This document shows, one piece after another, positions 40,263 to 43,345 of a stretch of DNA of 64,000 nucleotides. The stretch is taken from NCBI GenBank assembly GCA_029265975.1, contig JAJUGN010000001.1, positions 62,001 through 126,000 of the forward strand. Reading direction: 5' to 3'. The notes under the pieces were generated by a model. The model saw nothing but the letters and a program-made list of their open reading frames with translations, searched no databases and was not told the DNA's origin. Numbering within the stretch: position 1 is the stretch's first letter; each line of letters begins with the position of its first letter. The stretch is from Clostridiales bacterium. GTDB taxonomy: Bacteria; Bacillota; Clostridia; Oscillospirales; Oscillospiraceae. Made by a program: the position numbers and the translations under genes.

Positions 40263-40316
40263 AACGAAAAACGCTTTTCCAGGACGGATTCCCTTTGAAA
40301 TGCGCTTTTTTCGTTT
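40263..40316 (+). terminator. Terminator after the glycosyltransferase gene
   Basis: AACGAAAAACGC pairs imperfectly with GCGCTTTTTTCGTT about 27 bases on, starting right after the stop; the 3' arm is itself T-rich. Plausible intrinsic terminator. Confidence 0.45.
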
Positions 40317-40343
40317 GACTTTCTCCGGATTATATGTTATATT
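40315..40343 (+). promoter_or_regulatory. Promoter of the riboswitch and P-type ATPase
   Basis: TTGACT, a 17-base spacer and TATATT lie about 20 bases before the riboswitch. A transcript starting near 40350 would include the whole aptamer. Confidence 0.7.
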
Positions 40344-40360
40344 TCCCATATAATTTAATA

Positions 40361-40530
40361 CTCATGAGGGAGTAGTTGGCACAAAAAAGTGCGGCAAGTC
40401 AACATCCTGGCTGATTACAGTCTGGCTTGTCTTAAATAACGAGACTCATGTATAACTGTGCCGGCTATACATGAGCTTCCCATCGGTTTACGCCCGGGTA
40501 TGGCTTTGACAGTTATACCCGGGTTTGTTA
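40361..40530 (+). ncRNA. yybP-ykoY (manganese) riboswitch with transcriptional terminator platform
   Basis: The aptamer shows the yybP-ykoY hallmarks: GGGAGTAG after the first P1 strand, GTCAACATCCTGG, and CGAGACTCATG at the end. P1 is CATGAG (40363-40368) with CTCATG (40445-40450). Downstream, CTCATGTATA (40445) can pair instead with TATACATGAG (40466). GTATAACTGT (40450) can pair with ACAGTTATAC (40509), which would block the terminator CCCGGGTAT/ATACCCGGG (40493-40523) that ends in TTTGTT. This logic predicts that metal binding turns expression on, as known for Mn2+ sensors of this class. The controlled gene is the P-type ATPase. Confidence 0.88.
40493..40530 (+). terminator. Riboswitch-controlled terminator
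   Basis: Nine-base perfect GC-rich stem CCCGGGTAT/ATACCCGGG with a 13-base loop, followed by TTTGTTATTT. It lies between aptamer and gene, about 110 bases before the ATPase start, and its 3' arm is shared with the antiterminator pairing. Confidence 0.8.
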
Positions 40531-40639
40531 TTTGGGAGGAATGCGGGATGTGATTGCTGCAAGACGGCGATCGAAATTATATAAACACCGATATTAAACA
40601 TAATATTGTTATATTTGAAAGAGAAAAGAGGTAGTATCT

Positions 40640-43345
40640 TTGACTGAACAATGGTATCTTCATACGGCTGAGGATGTCTGCAGGGAGCTGCAAACAGACC
40701 TTGCCGCCGGCCTGAGTCCGGCAGAAGCTAAGCAAAGGCTTGAGAGATACGGGCACAACGAGCTTGCTCAAAAGAAGGGCCCCGGAATACTCTCCATGCT
40801 TCTGGACCAGCTGAAGGATTACATGGTCATAATACTTATTATCGCAAGCATAGTGTCCATCCTCGTCGGCGAGGTCACCGACTCAATAGTGATTATCGGA
40901 ATAGTCATTCTAAATTCCTGTCTCGGAGTATTCCAGGAATACCGTGCGGGGAAAGCTCTTGAGGCTCTGAAAAAAATGTCCGCTCCCAACGCCAAGGTAA
41001 TACGCGGCGGGGAGCAGCTGTCCATACCGGCTTCCGAGCTGGTGCCCGGCGACCTCGTTACTCTCGATACCGGAGACTACATCCCGGCCGACCTGAGGCT
41101 CATAAGCACGGTTAACCTTAAGGTTGAGGAGGCGGCGCTAACCGGAGAATCCGTCCCCGTTGAAAAGCATGCGGAAATCACGCTTAACGGCGAGGTAGGT
41201 CTCGGCGACAGGAAAAACTGCGGCTTTATGAGCACTATCGTGACATACGGCAGAGGCGCCGGAATCGTAACCTCGACCGGAATGAACACCGTGATAGGTA
41301 AGATCGCCGAGATGATACAGGAGGAGGATAAGGAGGAAACTCCCCTGCAGAAAAAGCTCGCCGAGATGGGCAAATTTCTCGGCACCGCCTGCCTTATAAT
41401 CTGCGGGCTGGTCTTTGTTCTGGGCCTTTTCAGGGGCGAGCCCCTGCTTGAAATGTTCATGACCGCCGTTAGCCTTGCGGTAGCCGCCATACCCGAGGGG
41501 CTCCCCGCCGTGGTGACCATAGTTCTGGCCCTCGGGATGCAGAGGATGGTAAAGCACAATTCCATCATGAAAAAGCTGCACGCAGTCGAGACACTCGGAA
41601 GCACGACCGTAATATGCTCCGACAAGACCGGCACCCTCACGCAGAACCAGATGACGATAGTCAAGATGTACGTTCCCGGAACCGAAATGGACGTCTTGGG
41701 CGAAGGCTACAATCCGGCTGGCTGGATCAGCATTGACGGCCACAAAATCGACGTCGCGGACGAGCCCGCCGTAAGGCGTCTTCTGGAGATACAGGCCCTT
41801 TGCAACGACGCCAGGCTGGAGCAGCGCTCCGAAAACGGAGAAAACTACTGGGGCATAATCGGCGATCCGACCGAGGGCGCCATGATCGTCGCCGCGGCGA
41901 AGGCTGGTATCGACCGGCTGAAAATGAACGAACTGCACCCGCGCCTTCAGGAAATCCCCTTTGATTCGAAGCGAAAGCTCATGACTACCTTCCACAAGGG
42001 AAGCGGGGACAAGTTTTATTCTTTCACCAAGGGCGCGCCCGACATACTCGTGGAACGCTGCGACCGTATCATGAGAAGAGACGGCAGTATCGAACCCATA
42101 ACTTCCGAGGACGTGAAGGCAATACTCGACGAAAACAAAAAGCTCGCCTCCATGGCCTACCGCGTGCTTGCAATGTCCTTCCGGGAGGTCGGCAGCGTGC
42201 CGGAGCATCCTGATTCCGAAAGCGACGAGCAGGCGATGGTATTCTGCGGGCTTGTCGGAATGATCGACCCCCCGCGCCTTGAGGCCGCGGAGGCCATAAA
42301 AATCTGCAAATCGGCAGGCATACGCGTCGTAATGATAACCGGCGATTACCGCGAGACAGCGGCGGCAATAGCGAAACAGCTCGGCATAATCGAATCGGAC
42401 GATCAGGTTCTTGCCGGCGCCGATCTCAGCCGGATGAGCGAAAGCGAGATAGCCGAGGCAGCAAAAAACGTCAACGTCTACGCCCGCGTTTCACCGGAGC
42501 ATAAGGTGGCCATCGTGCAGGCCATAAAGGCCAACGGAAACATCGCGGCCATGACGGGAGACGGGGTAAACGACGCCCCCGCCCTTAAGCGCGCCGACAT
42601 AGGCATAGCGATGGGCATAACGGGAACGGACGTCACCAAAGAAACGGCCGACATGATACTGACCGACGACAACTTCTCGAGCATCGTCAAGGCGGTCGAG
42701 GAGGGTCGCGTGATATACAGCAACATAAGAAAGTTCGTATTCTTCCTGATGTCCTGCAACGTCGGCGAGATACTCGTCATATTCCTCTCAATGATCCTCA
42801 ACTGGCCCATCCCGCTTCTCCCCATCCATCTTTTATGGGTCAACCTTCTGACGGACGCGCTGCCTGCGCTGGCTCTCGGCACCGAGAAAAAAGAACCCGG
42901 ACTGATGAAGGAAAAGCCCCGAGATCCCAACGAATCGATCATAAACAAGCCCATGCTCATCAACATCGCGGTCCAGAGCGTAGCGATGACCGCCGCCGTA
43001 CTTGCCGCCTTCTATTTCGGGTGGACGAAATACGGCATCGACACGGGCCGCACATACGCTTTGGTGGCTCTTATAATGAGCGAGCTTTTCAGGGCCTACA
43101 CCGCGCGTTCCGAGAAGTTCTCCGTTTTCAGAATCGGGCTATTCAGCAACCGCAACATGAATATCGCCGCCCTGGTTTCCTTTGCCCTGCTGGTAATGAT
43201 CATAATAGTCCCGGGTCTTCGCTCCATATTCAACGTCACGCCTTTCGCCTGGTACGACTGGGACTTTGTAATACTCGTAGCGCTGATACCCTTTGTTTTC
43301 GGAGAGCTGACAAAACTGGTAAAAAGAGCTTTCAACAAGTCTTAG
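40640..43345 (+). CDS. P-type (P2) cation-transporting ATPase, probably Mn2+/Ca2+ exporter
   Basis: A 901-aa calcium-ATPase-like pump. An N-terminal cation-ATPase domain is followed by the actuator motif LTGESVPVEK, the helix-4 PEGLPA metal site (AAIPEGLPAVVTIV), the phosphorylation site SDKTGTLTQN, and the hinge MTGDGVNDAPALK. About ten helices are present; the helix-6 region reads LLWVNLLTDALPALALGTEK. The start is TTG with AGAGG upstream. Control by a yybP-ykoY riboswitch points to manganese export or homeostasis, as for L. lactis YoaB; calcium transport cannot be excluded. Confidence 0.92.
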   Translation: MTEQWYLHTAEDVCRELQTDLAAGLSPAEAKQRLERYGHNELAQKKGPGILSMLLDQLKDYMVIILIIASIVSILVGEVTDSIVIIGIVILNSCLGVFQEYRAGKALEALKKMSAPNAKVIRGGEQLSIPASELVPGDLVTLDTGDYIPADLRLISTVNLKVEEAALTGESVPVEKHAEITLNGEVGLGDRKNCGFMSTIVTYGRGAGIVTSTGMNTVIGKIAEMIQEEDKEETPLQKKLAEMGKFLGTACLIICGLVFVLGLFRGEPLLEMFMTAVSLAVAAIPEGLPAVVTIVLALGMQRMVKHNSIMKKLHAVETLGSTTVICSDKTGTLTQNQMTIVKMYVPGTEMDVLGEGYNPAGWISIDGHKIDVADEPAVRRLLEIQALCNDARLEQRSENGENYWGIIGDPTEGAMIVAAAKAGIDRLKMNELHPRLQEIPFDSKRKLMTTFHKGSGDKFYSFTKGAPDILVERCDRIMRRDGSIEPITSEDVKAILDENKKLASMAYRVLAMSFREVGSVPEHPDSESDEQAMVFCGLVGMIDPPRLEAAEAIKICKSAGIRVVMITGDYRETAAAIAKQLGIIESDDQVLAGADLSRMSESEIAEAAKNVNVYARVSPEHKVAIVQAIKANGNIAAMTGDGVNDAPALKRADIGIAMGITGTDVTKETADMILTDDNFSSIVKAVEEGRVIYSNIRKFVFFLMSCNVGEILVIFLSMILNWPIPLLPIHLLWVNLLTDALPALALGTEKKEPGLMKEKPRDPNESIINKPMLINIAVQSVAMTAAVLAAFYFGWTKYGIDTGRTYALVALIMSELFRAYTARSEKFSVFRIGLFSNRNMNIAALVSFALLVMIIIVPGLRSIFNVTPFAWYDWDFVILVALIPFVFGELTKLVKRAFNKS

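Follow-up and report, generated by a model that had tools for sequence, protein, structure and literature searches.

A putative Mn2+ riboswitch with a proposed relayed expression platform upstream of a predicted cation-transporting ATPase gene in a Clostridiales genome

The ATPase leader, its aptamer, and their relatives

The window, i.e., the whole stretch of 64,000 nucleotides that was analyzed, contains a gene for a predicted P2-type cation-transporting ATPase preceded by a structured leader (Table 1). The gene product scored 739.5 bits against its best family model (cut-off 798.3) and is considered a putative cation exporter, whose transport substrate we infer. One promoter-like site was found with 1.2 expected by chance; its position is the main argument in its favor, as it ends directly 5' of the aptamer, with a predicted transcription start near 40350. 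Between the terminator and the ATPase start lie both a GGAGG-like site and a short open reading frame (40534-40593), and the same arrangement was seen in the related locus L183 (~346-300, minus strand). The peptides of both short frames are unlike each other; the frames are probably due to chance, but may represent a leader peptide.

Table 1. Coordinates of the features assigned in the leader and of the controlled gene (window positions)
Feature	Position	Strand	Details
Promoter-like sequence	40315-40343	+	TTGACT-17-TATATT, TG ahead of -10; 10/12 consensus matches
Mn2+ (yybP-ykoY) aptamer, putative	40363-40450	+	P1 5' strand to P1 3' strand; RF00080 sub-threshold match and relatives
P1 5' strand CATGAG	40363-40368	+	partner 40445-40450, 6 bp
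P1 3' strand CTCATG	40445-40450	+	common to P1 and anti-antiterminator (AAT) hairpin
AAT hairpin CTCATGTATA/TATACATGAG	40445-40475	+	40445-40454/40466-40475, 10 bp, perfect
AAT 5' arm GTATAACTGT, outer antiterminator strand	40450-40459	+	partner 40509-40518
AAT 3' arm GGCTATAC, inner antiterminator strand	40463-40470	+	partner 40498-40505
Intrinsic terminator hairpin	40492-40524	+	14 pairs, -22.7 kcal/mol
Terminator 5' arm segment GTATGGCT	40498-40505	+	inner helix with AAT 3' arm, 8 bp including G-U
Terminator 3' arm segment ACAGTTATAC	40509-40518	+	outer helix with AAT 5' arm, 10 bp, perfect
Terminator U-run TTTGTTAT	40524-40531	+	
Predicted P2-type cation-transporting ATPase (PMR1/SERCA-like), controlled gene	40640-43345	+	TTG start; TIGR01522

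The aptamer matched RF00080 over the full model length with 25.1 bits (E 4.9e-5, 501-base search), below the gathering cut-off of 45 bits. An Rfam search at gathering level gave no match at the site, and a scan of the window's own genome with RF00080 gave none at E <= 0.001. The L1 motif GGGAGTAG (the GGGAGUAG motif of the RF00080 class) is present at ~40368-40375, and both L1 and L3 vary little or not at all in 13 relatives. Helices P1.1, P1.2, P2, and P3 of the four-way junction were recovered with 95.2% of the cells paired in these relatives, a value reached by none of 500 shuffles, and double changes occur at 14 of 21 aptamer pairs; P1.2 (40375-40378/40437-40440) is among the covarying helices. 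In solved riboswitch members, an L3 adenosine coordinates Mn2+ and confers Mn2+ specificity (PMC6754395). By analogy, the Mn-sensing adenosine would correspond to A40404, which is invariant in the 13 relatives. A predicted P2-type cation ATPase located downstream of the aptamer is moreover the gene context expected of a Mn2+ riboswitch. The leader is therefore very probably a divergent yybP-ykoY Mn2+ riboswitch, sub-threshold but coherent, with Mn2+ as its presumed ligand. A preliminary description of the region had named it a manganese riboswitch; the search against RF00080 that it suggested as a check missed the gathering score, while the identity is supported by the sub-threshold match, L1, A40404, and the covariation of the aptamer.

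Extension of this analysis toward related genomes was based on an order-specific aptamer model (R1) built from 13 loci. At the family level R1 matched 201 of 401 genomes, and at the order level 213 of 394. Eight of 201 family genomes reached E <= 0.001 with RF00080, and 16 related loci likewise lacked a match at the gathering score. The RF00080 cut-off is thus undiscriminating here, because none of the 201 family genomes passes it while R1 matches half of the genomes searched. This in turn indicates that an order of Clostridia carries probable Mn2+ riboswitches which are largely missed by the curated model and are found by R1. The majority of the distinct loci (113 of 140) precede exporter-type genes, i.e., 70 MntP-type genes (assigned by PF02659) and 43 ATPase genes similar to that of the window. 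Two genomes each contain a pair of Mn aptamer matches on the same contig and strand, either ~0.65 kb (G134:C66, 27638-27731 and 28382-28473) or ~3.2 kb apart (G071:C11, 55871-55963 and 59173-59268); these pairs may be tandem or serve adjacent exporter genes.

Mutually exclusive pairings and comparative tests of arm exchange

Downstream of the aptamer, the six bases 40445-40450 are used by both P1 and the AAT hairpin. Shared arms make these pairings mutually exclusive: the AAT hairpin excludes P1, and the antiterminator excludes both the AAT hairpin and the terminator. The P1, alternative stem, 10-bp antiterminator, and terminator proposed in the preliminary description are all present and exactly placed. 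Its view of the antiterminator as one 10-bp helix holds for the outer helix, but overlooked an inner helix (40463-40470/40498-40505) whose support in relatives is no weaker. Within 40445-40523, none of 3,000 dinucleotide shuffles contained two perfect 10-bp inverted repeats, and three contained at least one; the folding energy of the leader is 4.1 sd lower than that of shuffles. On the minus strand, a match resembling a terminator (40476-40444) was set aside, being the AAT hairpin read in reverse.

The arms of the AAT hairpin and the terminator are in register, with 40450/40470/40498/40518 and the next seven positions representing closed four-pairing cycles. Therefore, once both hairpins are open, each arm of one can pair with an arm of the other. 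In the window, both exchange pairs at position 40455/40465/40503/40513 are Watson-Crick, against A x C and G-U within the hairpins.

To evaluate this exchange across loci, the arms of each of 47 non-redundant loci were paired with each other and with those of other loci. Own arms paired better than between-locus arms in the outer helix (-3.89 vs -2.89 kcal/mol, z -4.3) as well as in the inner helix (-8.80 vs -6.96 kcal/mol, z -4.9), with 0 of 5,000 permutations reaching either value, figures which are inflated by relatedness among the sequences. The same permutation of control arm pairings had no effect in the 47 loci (AAT5:T5, z 0.6; AAT3:T3, z -1.7). In the unselected alignment of 47 sequences, 75.1% of the antiterminator cells are paired compared with 69.7 +/- 1.0% in shuffles (0 of 500), whereas slid registers reach at most 44%. 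The number of double-change cells (83 vs 42 +/- 8 in shuffles) is subject to the same inflation of covariation by relatedness, and neither the pairs with a double change nor the number of pair types exceeded shuffles in this alignment. The inner helix is retained in 81% of the cells in relatives and the outer helix, moderately, in 70%. We prefer the 47-sequence alignment over a 21-sequence alignment (A2), because the latter was partly selected after stem lengths had been seen; within A2, 90.5% of the AAT hairpin cells are paired. Should the terminator have originated as a copy of the AAT hairpin, part of the exchange pairing would be due to descent.

On a closer taxonomic scale, the 36-base switch core was matched in one record, a metagenome-assembled genome of the same genus (G004). 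The same-genus relative L002/L183 has an unchanged 31-nt AAT hairpin and altered terminator arms, with the exchange pairs retained as G-U.

Folding energies and length-resolved folding

Folding of 40358-40531 gave -66.3 kcal/mol for the AAT hairpin plus terminator, -56.2 kcal/mol for P1 plus terminator, and -49.9 kcal/mol for P1 plus antiterminator. The AAT hairpin accounts for -12.6 kcal/mol, dropping to -0.6 kcal/mol once the P1 3' strand is removed. That an open P1 lets the alternative stem trap the antiterminator strand and the terminator form, as previously suggested, agrees with AAT plus terminator being the lowest fold. For closed P1, the preliminary description had predicted antiterminator formation and gene expression; its ON logic stands, but even with P1 enforced the finished terminator is favored over the antiterminator by 6.3 kcal/mol at equilibrium. 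A reading on minimum free energy alone was rejected, as it gives the OFF fold only and termination regardless of P1. As equilibrium favors the finished terminator even with P1 closed, the switch can only work kinetically, during transcription, and the resulting ON state would be speed-dependent and may be leaky.

We approached this by length-resolved folding, which treats every length as at equilibrium and is distinct from a kinetic simulation. With P1 closed, the antiterminator wins at available 3' ends of ~40511-40521 and the terminator from 40522 onward. With P1 open, the AAT hairpin persists to 40514, the antiterminator prevails briefly at 40515-40519, and the terminator forms from 40520-40521. 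Closure of P1 thus delays the terminator by ~2 nt in the window. Over 44 loci the median delay is 2.2 nt, with shuffles at ~0, and 34 of these loci exceed all six of their own shuffles (6.3 expected). Some 8-10 bases of RNA are assumed to be concealed in the polymerase, so that the crossover lengths coincide with the polymerase transcribing the U-run.

Platform types and the proposed switching mechanism

A mechanical search for intrinsic terminators, in which some automatic assignments are wrong (e.g., L009), allowed the classification of the platforms of all 140 loci. Only a terminator containing the P1 3' strand (direct platform) was detected in 42 loci, only a terminator separate from P1 in 50, both types in 47, and none in one. 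The window belongs to the second class and is not of the direct type, as its terminator starts at 40492 and the P1 3' strand ends at 40450. The relayed platform is common in the order and not restricted to the window. The earlier statement that most described members have simpler platforms applies to the L. lactis riboswitch (PMC11087558), but separate terminators are about as common as direct ones in this order. Several loci with both types, among them L075 and L124, have a P1-overlapping terminator closely followed by a second terminator with similar arms; such tandem-terminator loci possibly represent a stage between direct and relayed control. With terminators of all three kinds on one aptamer, the order offers a natural series to study the evolution of platforms and the kinetic share of switching.

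The yoaB-leader Mn2+ riboswitch of L. lactis shares with the window the P1.1 switch helix, L1, P1.2, and L3 with its Mn-sensing adenosine; there, Mn2+ closes P1.1 and blocks an intrinsic terminator, resulting in an ON switch (PMC11087558, PMC6754395, PMC9190785). In contrast to L. lactis, where the P1.1 3' strand lies within the terminator stem, the terminator of the window is clear of P1 and the AAT hairpin would relay the signal via a two-helix antiterminator. The direct-terminator Mn riboswitches of the order (e.g., L004, L010, and L133) have a near-identical aptamer, P1 3' strand, and CTCATG...CATGAG hairpin. In these direct loci the hairpin runs into a U-run and is the terminator, whereas the equivalent of the window lacks a U-run, which is carried by the second hairpin, and is assigned as anti-antiterminator. 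A comparable theme is known from trp-type attenuators, consisting of four arms in which the pairings 1:2 and 3:4 compete with 2:3, occupation of strand 1 leaving strand 2 free for strand 3. The pairings, covariation, permutation, and length-resolved folding of the window conform to this four-arm scheme. In the trp type, strand 1 is taken up by a stalled ribosome, whereas a metal-stabilized aptamer helix would have this role in the window, and an additional 1:4 helix extends the pairing to a long duplex. In S-box and FMN riboswitches, P1 competes with the antiterminator and the antiterminator with the terminator, ligand-bound P1 being the anti-antiterminator that turns the gene off. In the window, by contrast, the alternative hairpin of the unbound state would be the anti-antiterminator and the ligand would turn the gene on. 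No anti-antiterminator of Mn riboswitches was found in the literature searched, although its absence is not proven thereby.

Based on these data, we propose, with a probability of roughly 0.75, that the leader acts as a yybP-ykoY (Mn2+) riboswitch with a relayed platform, which turns on transcription of a cation-export ATPase gene. The pairings, their conservation and covariation, and the energies are computed results, and the ligand, the kinetic course and direction of the switch, and the transport substrate are inferred. Without Mn2+, P1 would be open and its 3' strand (40445-40450) would zip into the AAT hairpin (40445-40475), locking both antiterminator strands and permitting the independent terminator (40492-40524) to form. 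With Mn2+, P1 would be held closed and the AAT hairpin would collapse. In the emerging RNA, its freed arms could then capture those of the terminator, with the AAT 3' arm forming the inner helix on the terminator 5' arm and the AAT 5' arm the outer helix on the terminator 3' arm. The two hairpins would thereby exchange both arms for one long duplex. The terminator would be delayed beyond the U-run and the gene read. Such a strand logic would correspond to a trp-type attenuator (1:2 and 3:4 vs 2:3) with an extra 1:4 helix, P1 replacing the stalled ribosome. The Mn2+ sensor class is already known, and this exchange form of the platform recurs across the order. As a tentative extension, which we regard as plausible but somewhat short of an even chance, this might be a clade-wide platform in which terminator and AAT hairpin are sequence copies exchanging both arms; it would have arisen by duplication of a P1-overlapping terminator with loss of the first U-run, wobbles and mismatches setting the race and P1 shifting terminator completion by ~2 nt just before the U-run. 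If this copy-and-exchange reading is true, a riboswitch moves from direct to relayed control with its aptamer unchanged.

Two alternatives concern the hairpins themselves. The terminator could be a tandem copy of an ancestral P1-overlapping terminator, its complementarity to the AAT hairpin reflecting descent, so that the antiterminator was never useful and the second hairpin acts as a near-constitutive terminator or attenuator. The occurrence of direct, tandem, and separate terminators in the order, the likeness of terminator and AAT hairpin in sequence and register, and the equilibrium preference for the terminator irrespective of P1 are in line with this copy-only scenario. We nevertheless judge it improbable, since the exchange pairs match better within than between loci in many genera and against null controls, and since a silenced exporter gene beside a conserved aptamer makes little sense. 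Moreover, the AAT pair 40455/40465 is unpaired in most relatives (A x C in the window), but pairing of the AAT 3' arm with the terminator 5' arm is retained there, and in the window the Watson-Crick character of both exchange pairs at this position contrasts with a mismatch and a G-U in the hairpins. Less easily dismissed, though still rather unlikely, is that only the trp-like inner helix works and the 10-bp outer helix is incidental. The better retention of the inner helix in relatives (81% vs 70% of the cells) and several loci retaining mainly this helix (e.g., L052 and L060) point in this direction. Against it, the outer helix passes the permutation (z -4.3, 0 of 5,000), is perfect over 10 bp in the window, and has to start at 40511-40512 before the antiterminator overtakes other folds.

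A further alternative concerns the ligand. The yoaB gene of L. lactis, which we take to encode a P-type ATPase, is of relevance in this respect. The RF00080 score under the curated cut-off and the best family models of the controlled gene, being calcium-transporting ATPases, would be compatible with sensing of another divalent ion, e.g., Ca2+ or Cd2+. We consider this very improbable in view of the invariance in relatives of L1 and of the L3 adenosine conferring Mn2+ specificity (PMC6754395), the presence of the same aptamers upstream of MntP manganese exporters in many relatives, and the position of the L. lactis Mn2+ riboswitch in front of yoaB (PMC9190785).

A different arrangement was observed in the mntP leaders L009 and L011, both from the genus of the window, where the post-aptamer hairpin pairs back across the entire junction (AACGAGACTTATCTGCG/CGCAGATAAGTCTCGTT). 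This hairpin lacks a clear U-run, and a GGAG resembling a ribosome-binding site follows shortly downstream; the platform of these two loci is possibly translational or of another type.
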